From the IMG/VR virus record IMGVR_UViG_3300030098_005086, positions 1-56,539 of that record: 56,539 nucleotides of DNA; one strand, 5' to 3'. The notes beneath the pieces are model-generated. The model saw nothing but the letters and a program-made list of their open reading frames with translations. It ran no database searches and was not told the DNA's origin. Of this stretch, positions 6,150 to 14,432 are shown piece after piece. Position 1 is the first letter of the stretch. Every line of letters begins with the position of its first letter. Both the position numbers and the translations under genes were made by a program. This DNA is from a virus.

Positions 6150-6403
6150 ACTACTACTACAACATTTCGTTCTTGGATAATGGTATAGGCTTCATTTTCT
6201 ATCATCATAGTATGCGAGCCGTGTTTATCAAAATATAAGACATCACCATTTTTAATAGCATCTACCTCTGTGCCGGAATTAATTACTTCACCTTTTTTAT
6301 ATCTTAAGTCTTTAACGTCTTCAGAGGATAATAATAATCCCGAGTCGGTAGTAATCTGTTCTTCGATAGATTTAACTACTATATATTTACCTATTGCTTT
6401 CAT
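6146..6403 (-). CDS. groES: Co-chaperonin GroES-like protein
   Basis: 85 aa, near the usual GroES length of about 95. MKAIGKYIVVKSIEEQ is the first strand; TTDSGLLLSSED (about 18-29) fits the mobile loop that docks on GroEL. GEVINSGTEVDAIKNGDVLYFDKHG matches the GroES core, and the end ERNVVVVV matches the last strand. It overlaps groEL by 4 nt (ATGA) and lies downstream of it, the reverse of the cellular groES-groEL order. Phage co-chaperonins are known (T4 gp31). It probably caps the phage-encoded ring made by the adjacent gene. Confidence 0.88.
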   Translation of the reverse strand: MKAIGKYIVVKSIEEQITTDSGLLLSSEDVKDLRYKKGEVINSGTEVDAIKNGDVLYFDKHGSHTMMIENEAYTIIQERNVVVVV

Positions 6404-8025
6404 TCTTCTCTTTTTTCATATGAGCGTGCCATTGTGATAATAGCGTTAGTACTAAGTAATGTTACTGCAACAGAAACAGCATTTTGTAAAGCATGTTTAG
6501 TCACCTTCATAGGGTCAATGACTCCTAACTTTAAAAGGTCTCCGTGTTTATTGTTTTTTACATCGTAACCATAACCGTCCTCCATAGCAGTATTATACTT
6601 CTTGGTTTCTTTAAGTCCTGCGTTTTTTAATATTTGTATAAGAGGAACCCTAATGGCTTTAGCTAAAATTGCGTTAGCAATTCGTTTTTCCTGATTTGTT
6701 TCCTTCTCACTTGTAGTTAGCAGTCCGTTTGAGGATATATTAAATAAAGCTAATCCTGACCCTGGCAATATCCCTTCTGCTTGAGCAGAACGCACCGCAC
6801 ACACTGCATCATCAACTCTATCAAATAATTCTTTTTGTTCTACGTCTGTATTGCCTCCCACGTGAATAACCCCTATTCCTCCTGTTAAAGAAGCAATACG
6901 AGACATAATAAATTCTCTGCTCATTTTAGTAGTAGCTATCTTATGAGCTCCCCATAACTCTTCAACACGAGTGTTAATCTCATCCATATTGTCTCTGTTA
7001 GACGAGAGTATGATTGTTGAGGTGCCTCCAACTATCACCTTAGAGGCTTGTCCTAAATCTTTAAAATCTATGATACTCAAGTCATCTCCCGTCTTTTCAG
7101 AGAAGTAACGTGCTCCTGTAGATAAAGCAATGTCACGCATAAGCTCATGTTGCTTGTACCCAAAGTTAGGTGGGTCTATAACACAAACCTTAATATTACG
7201 TTTCATGACATTAGCAGCTAAGGTATGTAGCACATTGGGACTACATGGAGCAATAATAAGTAGCGATTTACCGTCTTGAATAATTGGTTTAAGTATTTGT
7301 TCTATATTAAGAATATTGGTTACCTCAGCATCAGAAACAAAAATGTAGGGATTCTCTAATATACACTCATCTTTCTTTTGATTATTAACAAATAGGTTGT
7401 TTGCATAGCCTCGGTCTATTTTAATTCCTTCAGTAGACTCAATATATGTTTCACTAGTATCAGACTTTTCTACAGTAACAATACCGTTTTTTCCTACTTG
7501 ATTATATACATCAGCAATTAATCCCCCTATATAAGGGTCATTATTAGCCGATATAGTAGCTACACTTTTAAGTCTACTCTTAGTAACAGGCTTACTTTTC
7601 TTTTTTAAAGCACTTACAATATCTTTAGTAGAAGAAACTAATTCCCTTAATACTTCTGTTTGATTACAGTCAGGATAGTTGTCAAACTTGTGTAAAGCTT
7701 CTTTTATTAAAGCTTCGGTTAAAACAATAGCTGTAGTCGTTCCGTCTCCCGCTTGAGTGGCCGTCTTGTCGGCAGCCTGCTTCATCATAGTAACCGCAAG
7801 GTTTTCTACAGGGTCTATAAGACTCACTGACTTAGCCACAGTAACCCCGTCTTTGGTAACCGTAAGATGACTCGTAAATTCAGGAGATTCTATAAGAACA
7901 GTATTTCCACTAGGACCTAGGGTGCTTTTAACTGCGTTTGAAATCTTATTAATACCGTTTATTAGCTTTTGACGACCGTCTTTTCCAAAGACTAATTCTT
8001 TGGGAGTGTATCCTTGTTTGTTCAT
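6400..8025 (-). CDS. groEL: Chaperonin GroEL (group I), phage-encoded
   Basis: 541 aa, close to the cellular length of about 548. Key ATPase parts are present: TLGPSGNTV (35-43), TKDGVTVAK (57-65), GDGTTTA (93-99), RVDDA with the hydrolytic Asp (403-407), EGILPGSG (417-424), and GVIDPMKVTKHALQNA (501-516). The C-terminus ends ARSYEKREE and lacks the Gly-Met tail of bacterial GroEL. It should form a folding chamber in the cytoplasm with the phage GroES, presumably for phage virion proteins. A promoter box lies at 8051-8058. Phage GroEL is known from phage EL, but having both partners is uncommon. Confidence 0.95.
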   Translation of the reverse strand: MNKQGYTPKELVFGKDGRQKLINGINKISNAVKSTLGPSGNTVLIESPEFTSHLTVTKDGVTVAKSVSLIDPVENLAVTMMKQAADKTATQAGDGTTTAIVLTEALIKEALHKFDNYPDCNQTEVLRELVSSTKDIVSALKKKSKPVTKSRLKSVATISANNDPYIGGLIADVYNQVGKNGIVTVEKSDTSETYIESTEGIKIDRGYANNLFVNNQKKDECILENPYIFVSDAEVTNILNIEQILKPIIQDGKSLLIIAPCSPNVLHTLAANVMKRNIKVCVIDPPNFGYKQHELMRDIALSTGARYFSEKTGDDLSIIDFKDLGQASKVIVGGTSTIILSSNRDNMDEINTRVEELWGAHKIATTKMSREFIMSRIASLTGGIGVIHVGGNTDVEQKELFDRVDDAVCAVRSAQAEGILPGSGLALFNISSNGLLTTSEKETNQEKRIANAILAKAIRVPLIQILKNAGLKETKKYNTAMEDGYGYDVKNNKHGDLLKLGVIDPMKVTKHALQNAVSVAVTLLSTNAIITMARSYEKREE

Positions 8026-10613: not shown

Positions 10614-10631
10614 GTGTCTTTAAGGACACAC
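10614..10631. repeat. 18-bp repeat GTGTCTTTAAGGACACAC, copy 1
   Basis: Identical to 12841-12858. As RNA, GUGUCU and GGACAC form a 6-bp stem with a UUAA loop. The two copies bracket the small TM gene, the HTH-like gene and the amidoligase gene. Confidence 0.8.
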
Positions 10632-10638
10632 CGCCCCG

Positions 10639-10684
10639 CCTTCCCCCTGTTAGTCCTTCCCTCGTTGCCCCTTCCCTCGTTCCC
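10639..10684. repeat. C-rich tandem repeat, about 15-bp unit
   Basis: CCTTCCCTCGTT occurs at 10655-10666 and again at 10670-10681 (15-bp period). A degenerate third unit precedes them at 10639-10654. The minus strand is almost pure purine here. Confidence 0.6.
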
Positions 10685-10867
10685 ACGTTTACAGGGATAG
10701 AGAAAGTGGGTTGTATCTCCCCCAAACGTTCACCGGATAAACATTTCAAAGGGAAAATCTAGAGCTTTAAATCGTTAATTAACAGATATATAAACACAAT
10801 TTGTCTATAAAATGTCACAAAATAGAATAAAAAGTGTCCAAAACATTAGATTTAATCGAGAAATAGA

Positions 10868-10890
10868 CTTATATTGTACTATTATTAATC
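10868..10890 (+). promoter_or_regulatory. Candidate early promoter
   Basis: TTATATTGTACTATTATTAATC resembles the segment CGTATATTAGTGCATTATTAATC upstream of the gene at 13341; both share TATATT and ATTATTAATC. TATATTG is a partial match to the -7 box. Confidence 0.35.
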
Positions 10891-10927
10891 AGATATGTTA
10901 ACGCATATCACAAAAAAAGTAAAAATC

Positions 10928-11017
10928 ATGAATACAATTCAAATAATAGTGCTAGGAATTCAATTAATCGGATTACTCTTTACGGCTTATGCTCTAAAGT
11001 ACGGCAAAAAGTATTAA
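10928..11017 (+). CDS. 29-aa single-TM peptide
   Basis: Translated by hand: begins MNTIQIIVLGIQLIGLLFTA and ends YALKYGKKY. One transmembrane helix with a basic tail that should face the cytoplasm. It is the first plus-strand reading after the divergent region and 30 nt before the next gene. It could modify a host membrane protein early in infection. Reality supported by position and clean start only. Confidence 0.5.
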   Translation: MNTIQIIVLGIQLIGLLFTAYALKYGKKY

Positions 11018-11047
11018 ATCAAATTATTAACTAAAAATTTATTAAAA

Positions 11048-11647
11048 ATGAGAAATTTATTAGAAATCGAAGTGCAAACTCTAAGAGAGAATGAAGCGCT
11101 TCAAAGCGGTTTACAAACTGCACAAATTGAGTCATTTCAAAACGAAATTTATACGAGTGGAATGAGCAAATTTGAATCGAGTGTTAGTATGTCAAAAGTA
11201 GTGGCAAAATCTTTCGAGTTCTTTAAAGAGAGCGGAAAAGGTTTGCTTGAAGAAAATGGCATTTATTGGGGTGTTGATGAGTTCGCACAAAAGATGTTCG
11301 GGTGGAAAAGGTCGTACCTCTATAAAATGGTAAAACTTTCAAAGGTTCACACCTCAAGGATAAAGAAGTTCAAAAGGGACTGCCAAGACCTAAGAGAATC
11401 GGGCGAAGTGGTGGCCGTATCGGTTGAAAATTGTTTAAAAACCATTCGCGAAAGTGTACAAAGCGGACAAGATGAAACACCACAAACGCGACCGCAAATA
11501 GTGTTAAGTATCAAAATGGATAATGCGACTTTTAAGATGTACGACAACAACGAAACCAAATGCTCAATGAGTGTGGAGCAGTTGCGAAACGTTAGGGGAC
11601 TTTTGAACGATTTTATCGAGGAATGCGAGGTTAACTTATCAGAATAA
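11048..11647 (+). CDS. Putative HTH DNA-binding protein
   Basis: A 199-aa protein. After an acidic coiled N-terminus, residues 74-100 (WGVDEFAQKMFGWKRSYLYK then MVKLSKV) look like a helix-turn-helix of the ParB/RepB or Lsr2-like kind, where the second helix carries KRSYLYKM. The C-terminal part has MSVEQLRNVRGLLNDFIEEC. It starts the early region next to repeats, so it may bind them as a replication or transcription regulator. No family is firmly recognised. Codon use and G+C are somewhat higher than the genes after 15 kb. Confidence 0.55.
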   Translation: MRNLLEIEVQTLRENEALQSGLQTAQIESFQNEIYTSGMSKFESSVSMSKVVAKSFEFFKESGKGLLEENGIYWGVDEFAQKMFGWKRSYLYKMVKLSKVHTSRIKKFKRDCQDLRESGEVVAVSVENCLKTIRESVQSGQDETPQTRPQIVLSIKMDNATFKMYDNNETKCSMSVEQLRNVRGLLNDFIEECEVNLSE

Positions 11648-11666
11648 TAATTAAAATTTAATAGAT

Positions 11667-12785
11667 ATGGAAAATCGAAATACAGGTGTAATTTACACCA
11701 CAACAGGCGAAAGTCGGAGAAGTCGGATTCAAAATTACCATGCTACTCAAGGTTGGGAATTATGGAAGAATAAAACGAAATGGAAATCAGATTTACGAGG
11801 TATGACACCGAGCGAAATTTGTGACACCGTTTTTAAGCGACCACACAATGAGGGTTATGAATCAAGGTTCAGAATCGGTTTTGAAGTGGAAAAGAGCTAT
11901 TTTTACTATGACGGACAAGGAAGTGCGGAAACCACACATGACCGATTAAATCAAGAATATGAGTTGTTTAGAGGGTTTGAAACTGACAGCTCATGCGGTG
12001 TTGAAGCAATCACACACATATTGCCGTTAGTACCCAAAGGCATATGGAGAACGAAAGTATTCGACATGATGTATAAAGCAAGACATATTTTAGATGATTC
12101 TTTGAGTCCTAGCAATGGAAAATGCGGGGGGCATATTTGCCTATCGGTTGAGGGCATGGAATCGAGGGAATTGTTTAAAGCGGTTCGTAAATTTAGTGGA
12201 ATTGTAATGTCATTATATCGCATGAGGTTGTACAGGACAAGAGGTCAGAATTATTGTTCCAATAATATGACCATGAGAACCACAAGGGGGACAGGTTGGA
12301 CAAATGCGGGGTATATGGACTCAGTATGTTTTAATGATAGGCCAAGTCATACAAAATACTCATTCTGTAAGCTATCAGATAAATTTATCGAGTTTAGAGT
12401 TCCCCCGAGGGTAACCTCAGTTGAATGTTTACGACTGCGCTATGAGTTATTTTATGAGGTTATGCGGTGGGCGGTTAAGCACAAAGACACGGATTCAGGG
12501 GGAGCGCTCCAAGTTGGCGCGGGTGTTTATACCAAATTCATTAGAGCGGTTAGACCTATCATTCTAAAGATGTGCAATGGCGACCAAATCAAAGCCGACA
12601 CCATCTGCCGAGAATCGCGACATTTTCAAAGGTTCATCGATACTGATGGGGTAAAGGTGGCGCAAGTGGTCAAGGACTTTGTATTGAACACCGAGACCGT
12701 GAACCGCAGAAATAGAATTGAAGGGGGTTCGAGTCATGGTAGTAATGCACGGCGCGACCTATGGAAACGCGGAGAGTGGGTGTAA
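11667..12785 (+). CDS. Amidoligase-family (COOH-NH2 ligase) enzyme
   Basis: A 372-aa protein with the marks of the glutamine-synthetase-fold amidoligases: FRIGFEVEK (68-76, metal/ATP Glu pair), ETDSSCGVEAITHIL (105-119), KCGGHICLSVEG (152-163, in place of CGLHVHV), and KFIEFRVPPRV (239-249). These enzymes join a carboxyl to an amine using ATP, as gamma-glutamylcysteine synthetase does. The partner gene at 13341 fuses a class II amidotransferase with a GGCT domain, the same set that Iyer, Aravind and co-workers linked to amidoligases. Substrate unknown: possibly a gamma-glutamyl peptide, a protein tag or a wall peptide. A terminator follows directly. Confidence 0.8.
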   Translation: MENRNTGVIYTTTGESRRSRIQNYHATQGWELWKNKTKWKSDLRGMTPSEICDTVFKRPHNEGYESRFRIGFEVEKSYFYYDGQGSAETTHDRLNQEYELFRGFETDSSCGVEAITHILPLVPKGIWRTKVFDMMYKARHILDDSLSPSNGKCGGHICLSVEGMESRELFKAVRKFSGIVMSLYRMRLYRTRGQNYCSNNMTMRTTRGTGWTNAGYMDSVCFNDRPSHTKYSFCKLSDKFIEFRVPPRVTSVECLRLRYELFYEVMRWAVKHKDTDSGGALQVGAGVYTKFIRAVRPIILKMCNGDQIKADTICRESRHFQRFIDTDGVKVAQVVKDFVLNTETVNRRNRIEGGSSHGSNARRDLWKRGEWV

Positions 12786-12804
12786 TTCCCACACCGACCG
12801 CGTG

Positions 12805-12834
12805 AAAAGGGGGGGCATTTTGCCCCCTTTTTTT
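12805..12834 (+). terminator. Rho-independent terminator after the amidoligase gene
   Basis: GGGGGCA (12811-12817) pairs with TGCCCCC (12821-12827) around TTT, flanked by an A-run upstream and a T-run downstream, about 20 nt past the stop. Confidence 0.88.
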
Positions 12835-12840
12835 GTTTTT

Positions 12841-12858
12841 GTGTCTTTAAGGACACAC
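12841..12858. repeat. 18-bp repeat GTGTCTTTAAGGACACAC, copy 2
   Basis: Exact copy of 10614-10631 in the same orientation, directly behind the amidoligase terminator. Confidence 0.8.
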
Positions 12859-12864
12859 ATTTTT

Positions 12865-12920
12865 AGTCAGTTTTTTATGTTTCTATTAAAATTATCAGTC
12901 AGTTTTTTGTGTTTCTACTA
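12865..12920. repeat. Tandem 24-bp direct repeats, 32-bp period
   Basis: 12865-12888 and 12897-12920 match except at two positions; both start AGTCAGTTTTTT. A related TTTAGTC is found in the palindrome just downstream. Confidence 0.75.
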
Positions 12921-12938
12921 ATCTAAATACAGATTTTG

Positions 12939-12954
12939 GACTAAAATTTTAGTC
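12939..12954. repeat. Perfect 16-bp palindrome
   Basis: GACTAAAATTTTAGTC reads the same on both strands. It is a good candidate operator for a dimeric regulator and shares TTTTAGTC with the preceding repeats. Confidence 0.7.
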
Positions 12955-12960
12955 GGTCTT

Positions 12961-13087
12961 CAGGCGAATAAGTGCCACGTACATCTGTTAAGTGGGCGAA
13001 GTTGTCCCGACCGCAAAGCGGAGCGCGGGAAAGAGTGGGCGGGAAGCGGGAAGCGTACGTGCTTCGCGGAAGCACGGAAAGTGCCTG
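12961..13087 (+). ncRNA. GC-rich structured RNA or 5' leader element, unknown family
   Basis: About 127 bases much richer in G+C than the surroundings. CAGGC (12961-12965) can close with GCCTG (13083-13087). Inside are TCCCG/CGGGA (13005-13009 with 13026-13030) enclosing CCGC-AAA-GCGG, a purine stretch with three GCGGGAA units, and the perfect hairpin CGTGCTT-CGCGG-AAGCACG (13058-13076). An A-run follows. It lies between the amidoligase and GATase/GGCT genes, so it may be a riboswitch, a small phage RNA or a recombination site. No known RNA family is recognised. Strand is assumed to follow the genes. Confidence 0.5.
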
Positions 13088-13340
13088 TAAAAAAAATATG
13101 CGCATAAATTTTGGTGGTTCAATTTATATATTATATATTCGTGGCAGATTTCTTTTCATATCTACAAGTGGAATTGCAATTGAAAGTGTCAGGGGGTACA
13201 AACGACACAGACAACCGCAGTTCCACTTTTCTTTTGTCCCTCTTTTATTTGGTGTTGTCTAAATTTTGTCGTATATTAGTGCATTATTAATCGAGTTCTG
13301 AACATACAAATTAAATGTTCTACTCATAAAACAAAGGAAG
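13088..13340 (+). promoter_or_regulatory. Leader region of the GATase/GGCT gene
   Basis: About 250 bases without a convincing gene. AAGTGGAA near 13168 can pair with TTCCACTT near 13221, and GTGTC with GACAC within that loop. Near 13270-13292 is a segment sharing TATATT and ATTATTAATC with the early-promoter candidate at 10868. A 54-codon reading from 13099 shows no family and is not called. Confidence 0.4.
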
Positions 13341-14432
13341 ATGTGTATTATAATTGTAAAACAAAAGGGAAAGAAAGTAAGCCCTCAAGTTTTAAAAACC
13401 TCAAGTAAAATAAATCCGCACAATTTAGGTGTGGTATGGTTAGATACATTTGAAGTGTCTTATCATAAATCTAAAGAGTGGAAAGTGTTAAATACTGACC
13501 GCCCTTATATTGCTCACTTTAGATATGCAACAATCGGACAAGTGAACAAAGCAAACACCCACCCCTTTGAGTGTGGCAATAACAAGAACGAGTTGCTAAT
13601 GATGAACGGAACAATCCGCGGAAAAGGAAATATCCACGAGTGCGACACTAAAGTTCTAGCCAAAGAGTTAGGCGGTGTATCGCGCCACGTATGGAAAAGC
13701 GAGTTAGAGAAGTATGATTGTCGTTTTGTTTCTATTAATAAAAAGCATAGAACGTTCCAAATATATAATAAAGAGTTGTGGACACAAAAAGAGGGGGTGT
13801 GGTACTCGAAAGACAACGTGCTACAAGATAATCTTATTGCCGTATATGGTACGTTAAAAAAAGGATATTCAAATTACCACCGATATCTAAACAAATCTAA
13901 ATATATAGGAAGTGGAAACACTACGGACAAGTACCCGTTGATAATAGAGGGATTGCCTTATATGGTAAACCAAAAAGGGAAAGGACACAATGTTAATGTT
14001 GATGTCTTTAAAATTTCCAATCCCACCCTTGAACGTGTGGATATGTTGGAAGGACACCCGCAATGGTACAAGCGAGTACAAGTTCCCGTTACATTAAAGA
14101 GCGGGAAGGTTTTAAAGTGTTGGATATATTTCAACCCCAAAAAGATAGGGGCAAACACAACCCTACACAAAACGTATTCACAAAGCACATCAGTATATGG
14201 TAGAATTAAATCCTACACCCCTAAAATGTTTGATTGGTCAAGCATTACCCCTATTGATGAAATAGAGATAAATAGAGATGATGAGTTGTTGCGATTCGAT
14301 GAGTCGTTTAGTGACACCCCGTATTGTCCCGATTGCTTAAATGATTTAGAGTTCGATAGCTTTAATAGTTATCATTGTTATGGGTGTGGTCAATGGTTTA
14401 GTGAAACAGAAGTATTAACTAATAATTTTTAA
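13341..14432 (+). CDS. Class II glutamine amidotransferase fused to GGCT domain and zinc ribbon
   Basis: A 363-aa three-part protein. (1) Residues 1-155: Ntn amidotransferase, starting MCIII with Cys2 as nucleophile, and HFRYATIGQVNKANTHPF (59-76), the substrate-binding motif; it would release ammonia from glutamine. (2) About 165-310: gamma-glutamylcyclotransferase/AIG2-like domain with VYGTLKKG (168-175) and the acidic DMLEGHPQWYKR (234-245), whose Glu237 fits the catalytic acid. (3) 329-349: zinc ribbon CPDC...CYGC. With the amidoligase it would make, cut or recycle gamma-glutamyl-type bonds. Domain calls are strong, the pathway is inference. Confidence 0.85.
   Translation: MCIIIVKQKGKKVSPQVLKTSSKINPHNLGVVWLDTFEVSYHKSKEWKVLNTDRPYIAHFRYATIGQVNKANTHPFECGNNKNELLMMNGTIRGKGNIHECDTKVLAKELGGVSRHVWKSELEKYDCRFVSINKKHRTFQIYNKELWTQKEGVWYSKDNVLQDNLIAVYGTLKKGYSNYHRYLNKSKYIGSGNTTDKYPLIIEGLPYMVNQKGKGHNVNVDVFKISNPTLERVDMLEGHPQWYKRVQVPVTLKSGKVLKCWIYFNPKKIGANTTLHKTYSQSTSVYGRIKSYTPKMFDWSSITPIDEIEINRDDELLRFDESFSDTPYCPDCLNDLEFDSFNSYHCYGCGQWFSETEVLTNNF

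Follow-up and report, generated by a model that had tools for sequence, protein, structure and literature searches.

The 56,539-base IMG/VR virus record IMGVR_UViG_3300030098_005086, considered here over its entire length (the window), encodes on its plus strand two proteins of interest, P0001, a predicted amidoligase of the glutamine-synthetase fold, and P0002, a fusion of a class II glutamine amidotransferase (GATase), a cyclotransferase, and a zinc ribbon. The terminase, portal, and virion proteins of the window match phage families; the portal shares 74% identity with the one in an unclassified Manatee Spring podovirus and 45–50% with those of Flavobacterium (Elemovirus) and Maribacter phages, resemblances that make a host among the Bacteroidota probable. 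An earlier annotation made from the letters of this DNA by a model (the sequence-only reading) had delineated a two-gene module at 10614–14432, comprised of an enzyme with the amidoligase motifs GFEVE, CGGH, and EFR and the multidomain fusion. Both open reading frames (ORFs) lie exactly where it placed them, with the three motifs at residues 71–75, 153–156, and 242–244, and its attribution of the partnered genes to a phage is borne out; however, it overlooked a further conserved gene within that range, P0003. The order on the plus strand is thus P0003, P0001, a 555-nucleotide (nt) spacer, and P0002 (Table 1).

Table 1. Features of the amidoligase locus, numbered from the first base of the window.
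Feature	Position	Strand	Description and support
P0003	11048..11647	+	Conserved small protein, 199 amino acids (aa), directly 5' of the amidoligase gene
P0001	11667..12785	+	Predicted diverged glutamine-synthetase-fold amidoligase, 372 aa; hhalign, AlphaFold 2 model, Foldseek
P0001 GFEVEK motif, residues 71-76	11877..11894	+	Putative metal/ATP-binding glutamates; G71, E73, E75, K76 invariant (76/76)
P0001 D-x-S-x-x-x-E motif, residues 107-113	11985..12005	+	D107, S109, E113 invariant (76/76); aligns with D-S-E of Amidoligase_2
P0001 CGGH motif, residues 153-156	12123..12134	+	C153, G154, G155, H156 invariant (76/76)
P0001 EFR motif, residues 242-244	12390..12398	+	E242, R244 invariant (76/76)
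Intrinsic-terminator-like hairpin and T run	12802..12836	+	G-run/C-run hairpin with T-rich tail, after the amidoligase gene
P0002	13341..14432	+	Fused class II GATase, GGACT, and zinc ribbon, 363 aa; Pfam, AlphaFold, Foldseek, conservation
P0002 domain 1, residues 1-160	13341..13820	+	Class II GATase (N-terminal nucleophile, Ntn) with Cys2 nucleophile; weak PF13522/PF13230, Foldseek
P0002 domain 2, residues 164-275	13830..14165	+	Gamma-glutamylamine cyclotransferase (GGACT/AIG2); PF06094, Foldseek
P0002 C-terminal zinc ribbon	14325..14387	+	Cys4: C329, C332, C346, C349; all four in 78/85 homologs

P0001 has no sequence match in Pfam, PHROGs, NCBIfam, or the PDB, and none of the 76 members of its family reaches the cut-off of the Amidoligase_2 profile (PF12224), which is also without a match anywhere in the window. 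A comparison with canonical phage Amidoligase_2 proteins using hhalign (probability 88%, E~3 × 10–6) places the motifs in register, with ExE, D-S-E, H, and E-x-R, the predicted metal/ATP-site motifs, aligning with those of Amidoligase_2. Seventeen positions are invariant across the 76 homologs, including all the motifs in Table 1 and the further residues E105, R187, and R258; given this invariance, the motifs are not chance matches. The AlphaFold 2 model (predicted local distance difference test [pLDDT] 85; predicted template-modeling [TM] score 0.88) recovers glutamine synthetases, gamma-glutamylmethylamide synthetase (GmaS), and YbdK as the best Foldseek matches in the PDB (E=3.6 × 10–5 to 1 × 10–3; probability ~1.0), with low TM-scores to these solved enzymes (0.25–0.33), the fold superposing in part only. 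Against viral models, the top four matches are close relatives (target-normalized TM 0.54–0.87), below which the named entries are mostly phage amidoligases. The resemblance to both glutamine-synthetase-fold enzymes and phage amidoligases accords with the earlier annotation, and we conclude from sequence and model comparisons that P0001 is an amidoligase of this fold, in a family lying outside Amidoligase_2. By homology, it is predicted to form an amide bond with ATP. In three records (G010:C1:34312–35241, G039:C1:680–1621, and G040:C1:61458–62351) the match to the amidoligase profile crosses one in-frame stop (TGA or TAG), which may reflect a match running past the end of the gene.

Both enzymatic domains of P0002 are recovered by Pfam, the AlphaFold model (pLDDT 91), and Foldseek, and these domains, along with the C-terminal Cys4 ribbon, agree with the sequence-only reading. 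The Pfam matches of its GATase domain are weak and below the curated cut-off (PF13522/PF13230, best E=4 × 10–4), and Foldseek relates this domain to the glutaminase domains of GFAT-1, GlmS, PurF, and AsnB. The second domain matches PF06094 over residues 167–267 (E=3.5 × 10–23; 82.9 bits against a cut-off of 22.8) and superposes on human and mouse GGACT (3jub/1vkb) with a target-normalized TM of 0.73–0.75 and a root-mean-square deviation of 2.0, its Glu237 aligning with the catalytic Glu82 of the human enzyme. The label 'GGCT-like' given to it earlier holds for the cyclotransferase fold, but the domain is more exactly assigned by sequence and model to the GGACT (gamma-glutamylamine) type than to generic GGCT, because its fold matches GGACT (TM 0.75 to 3jub) better than human GGCT (TM 0.49 to 2rbh). 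Across 85 homologs the GATase residues M1–C2, R61, T64, H74, N89–G90 (oxyanion), and D102 are conserved, with R61 and D102 as the glutamine-binding residues; Arg61, His74, Asn89–Gly90, Asp102, Tyr169–Gly–Thr–Leu, and Glu237 are invariant; and Cys2 is present in 84, the remaining sequence starting late. Both catalytic residues named in the sequence-only reading, Cys2 and Glu237, are therefore conserved. The zinc ribbon is absent from distant members of the family and from the homolog in phage C75C1.

The two genes were traced through IMG/VR by independent scans, for which small alignments were required as queries, since P0001 or P0002 as a single-protein query yielded no match there. The fusion query retrieved 224 relatives and the amidoligase query 124, with 80 loci kept from each. 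The two genes occur together in 142 loci (including the window and MW202828, with some contigs caught by both scans; 101 loci are non-redundant), always on the same strand with the amidoligase 5', at distances ranging from a 105-nt overlap to 4.9 kb, and their carriers form a group of aquatic viruses. An amidoligase accompanies the fusion in 74 of the 80 fusion-scan loci, and the fusion is present in 65 of the 80 loci from the amidoligase scan. Among the thirteen records searched behind the exceptions, some have the two genes at opposite ends, as would be expected of a circular genome cut open between them, and most others stop within a few kb of the gene; a few short records were judged by locus length alone. 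Hence, pairing is near-complete where contig ends permit the test, with one clear exception not due to such ends (G037/L101, below). Among 17 records collected by their portal, several of them fragments, 2 have both genes and 15 have neither. Because so many portal-matched relatives are without both genes, the cassette is a dispensable accessory that some of these phages carry. A mirror-tree comparison was weakly informative: the partial correlation between amidoligase distances and fusion distances given Sak and GroEL (0.30) was no stronger than that of other gene pairs, for which reason we claim no co-evolution beyond common phage ancestry. The fusion, previously flagged as unusual, is indeed rare in deposited phages (of 50,697, a single record has it in full and another has it minus the ribbon) but widespread in metagenomic viruses, as the 224 relatives attest; it is uncommon in architecture yet no singleton. 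A genome scan with the fusion gave only two full-length or near-full-length matches, in contigs of Cytophagales and Flavobacteriales metagenome-assembled genomes; the rest were mostly lone GGACT domains, and consequently bacterial neighborhoods offered no functional clue. An Aquificaceae contig (L173) considered as a continuation of the GATase-GGACT architecture was rejected as a stand-alone GGACT ORF.

Natural variants bear on which components are essential. Besides the amidoligase and, next to it, an unfused class II GATase that has a Cys-rich tail (L101 8260–9171), the exception G037/L101 encodes another, more distant amidoligase; a search of this record found no GGACT domain. As it retains ligase and glutaminase without GGACT, it suggests that these two form the core, with GGACT being optional. 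The evidence on this is not all one-directional, because Arthrobacter phage Salgado pairs Amidoligase_2 with a GATase, whereas Bacillus phage 055SW001 pairs it with a GGCT, with no GATase in the stretch viewed. In two further loci, L158 (8980–14115) and L159 (9359–15118), two amidoligase genes flank the fusion gene. Small repeat-rich proteins with YYENSDGYW-like units are encoded just upstream in these loci; such a protein beside the amidoligase was considered as a substrate and is confined to these two loci.

A P0003 homolog lies 5' of the amidoligase in 80 of the 101 non-redundant loci; none was found in the portal-matched relatives without the module, and the tested distant lineages that do have the module yielded none either. 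P0003 has no convincing family in Pfam, NCBIfam, or PADLOC and is a candidate third member of the operon. Comparison of the 101 loci places the cassette between a divergent GroEL gene, present in 71 of them, and a set coding for Sak, exonuclease, primase, and helicase; this placement among replication genes points to probable early expression. In the window, the GroEL-like protein (541 aa) is encoded at 6400–8025, with a likely GroES adjoining it, and is kept divergent to the cassette in relatives. The spacer between the two principal genes (12786–13340), described earlier as GC-rich, is so only over ~120 nt (12970–13090, 59.5% GC), its overall content being 39%. Its RNA folds more stably than dinucleotide shuffles (z=–3.2), and an Rfam search of the window, spacer included, returned no family. 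Many relatives have several variable small genes between the amidoligase and fusion genes; none is evident in the window, whose spacer looks non-coding despite two readable but unsupported ORFs (67 and 96 aa). An exact 18-nt palindrome, GTGTCTTTAAGGACACAC, occurs twice in the window, in the divergent non-coding region (10614–10631) and directly after the amidoligase terminator (12841–12858), and is followed in the spacer (12859–12921) by a tandem pair of 31-nt near-repeats that are spaced at 32 nt and 87% alike.

The domain identities, the intact active sites, and the conserved partnership and gene order of the two proteins, as established by computation, lead us to tentatively favor a reading in which they would constitute a minimal two-enzyme cassette for forming and editing amides, most likely on a host-envelope peptide or peptidoglycan-type substrate. 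The amidoligase would activate a carboxylate with ATP and join ammonia or an amine to it, while the class II glutaminase domain would free ammonia from glutamine for the ligase step; alternatively, the ligase might take a gamma-glutamyl group in place of glutamine-derived ammonia. The GGACT domain would cut gamma-glutamyl-amine bonds to give 5-oxoproline and the free amine, thereby removing or recycling gamma-glutamyl groups, and the resulting change in the envelope might alter the host cell or block competing phages. We infer the direction of flux, the use of ammonia as the nucleophile, the substrate, and the benefit, and draw the envelope target and superinfection exclusion by analogy from the literature on related cassettes. 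In favor of this reading we count the invariant catalytic residues, the pairing in 142 loci, the both-or-neither distribution in portal-matched relatives, the variant G037/L101, the partners of Amidoligase_2 in other phages, the position beside replication genes, and the published view of the larger cassette, and the earlier proposal of a phage making and editing a gamma-glutamyl-type amide fits the sequence evidence. Several points weigh against it, namely the dispensability of the cassette, the low TM-scores of P0001, the separation of the ligase from a glutaminase domain that is without a fused synthase, the GGCT-only pairing in phage 055SW001, and the derivation of the envelope target solely from published hypotheses on related cassettes.

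Other arrangements of the same activities can be envisaged. All three domains belong to families acting on gamma-glutamyl amides, and the amidoligase might instead add glutamate via its gamma-carboxyl to an amine as a handle, which the Ntn domain, as an EgtC-like amidohydrolase, and the GGACT domain, as a BtrG-like cyclotransferase, would then remove. Handles of this type are used by BtrJ/BtrG, wherein BtrG acts as a cyclotransferase, and by PuuA/PuuD. In line with such a cycle, a 1-naphthylamine glutamylating enzyme stands beside gamma-glutamylmethylamide synthetase among the structural matches of P0001, and R61 and D102 are invariant, their counterparts in GlmS being residues that we take to hold the glutamyl moiety. 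EgtA and EgtC provide a precedent of a ligase and a GATase-family enzyme adding and removing gamma-Glu (PMC10805701). We nevertheless regard this cycle as unlikely, as the listed Foldseek matches of the Ntn domain are the ammonia donors GFAT/GlmS, PurF, and AsnB rather than EgtC, a single chain with two distinct deglutamylating domains would have one too many, and no enzyme that would process an intermediate is conserved between the two genes. A more novel reading, possible if doubtful, is a self-contained pathway to a host metabolite or envelope peptide with a gamma-glutamyl or amide modification not yet described, in which donor and editor in one chain would let the phage set the level of modification, with the amidoligase being a new family outside Amidoligase_2.

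The cassette might alternatively attach amide-linked groups to a protein of the phage or its host, such as a ribosomal protein, RNA polymerase, or a virion protein. Peptides and proteins are the predicted targets of glutamine-synthetase-fold amidoligases (Iyer et al., 2009), and phage amidoligase clusters can hold a RimK-like peptide ligase, as in Bas86; yet the window and its full-length relatives yielded no RimK/ATP-grasp gene, nor does a small substrate gene stand beside the pair in all loci, making this improbable. We consider it very improbable that these are auxiliary metabolic genes for nitrogen or glutathione salvage, feeding glutamate and ammonia to the host. Phage-ZRK32, whose genes include those for an amidoligase, a GATase, a GGCT, and a glutathione synthase, enhanced the growth of its host on nitrate or ammonia, and a role in nitrogen metabolism was proposed for it (PMC10945688). 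The effect was not assigned to any particular gene, however, salvage has no need of an ATP-consuming ligase, and the cyclotransferase of P0002 resembles GGACT and not the glutathione-specific ChaC enzymes (PMC12756093). A role in DNA-base modification was also considered, with nothing found in its favor, and a PADLOC scan gave no match.

What phage amidoligase cassettes do biochemically has been a question since 2009, in part because the known ones have five or more separate genes. The present lineage cuts the cassette down to two proteins with intact active sites across ~100 non-redundant metagenomic phage loci, with natural variants that dispense with GGACT, dispense with the zinc ribbon, or possess two ligases. 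Owing to this reduction, its function, be it the favored forming and editing of amides or another, can be tested with two expressed proteins. It also reveals a large amidoligase family that escapes Pfam, PHROGs, and NCBIfam.

Among cellular systems, human and mouse GGACT share the fold (TM 0.73–0.75; root-mean-square deviation ~2) and catalytic glutamate of the P0002 cyclotransferase but are free-standing, with no fused glutaminase. The EgtA/EgtC pair of ergothioneine biosynthesis likewise joins a gamma-glutamyl ligase to an enzyme of the glutamine-amidotransferase family (PMC10805701); however, EgtC takes gamma-Glu off an intermediate, the pair is without a cyclotransferase, and EgtC is not among the listed structural matches of P0002. 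In other phages, Amidoligase_2 is clustered with GATase, GGCT, ATP-grasp, and COOH-NH2 ligases, and one close parallel is the phiEco32/LUZ24-type cassette (gene content in PMC3890496) of Amidoligase_2, COOH-NH2 ligase, ATP-grasp, class II GATase, and GGCT, termed a 'peptidoglycan modification cassette' (PMC5498523). The parent idea, in which a phage amidoligase works with a GATase and a GGCT on the peptides of peptidoglycan, has thus already been published (PMC5498523), and the larger cassette has been proposed to modify peptidoglycan side chains for superinfection exclusion (PMC5498523; PMC10580990), which in the literature is a hypothesis for which we found no experiment. Like the locus described here, that cassette has a glutamine-synthetase-fold amidoligase, a class II GATase, and a GGCT-fold gene clustered among early or replication genes of podoviruses. 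Unlike it, the present version has two proteins, with GATase and GGACT in one chain, usually with a zinc ribbon, and its amidoligase family escapes PF12224.

Two individual phages offer further parallels. Phage C75C1 (OQ984151) shares the GATase-GGACT fusion (~40% identity) with an amidoligase gene upstream, but its ligase is a canonical Amidoligase_2 (E=3.5 × 10–30) and its fusion is without the zinc ribbon. Phage ctfjg026 (MW202828), with a portal 74% identical to that of the window, has the same order of amidoligase and GATase-GGACT-zinc ribbon genes, 62 nt apart, differing in an extra ~225-aa N-terminal region of its amidoligase. A search for RimK-type ATP-grasp or Amidoligase_2 genes found no match elsewhere in the window or in at least 21 nearly full-length relatives, and among the controls the ATP-grasp search was positive in Bas86 and in 13 of 14 genomes; a run with PF14395 (COOH-NH2 ligase) was without a match in the window, relatives, and controls alike, though hmmscan matches it to P0010 of phage ctwe8250. 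Since the ATP-grasp and, as far as tested, the COOH-NH2 ligase genes were not found in this lineage, we class the pair in the window as a minimal form, with fused domains, of the phage amidoligase cassette already known rather than as a new category.

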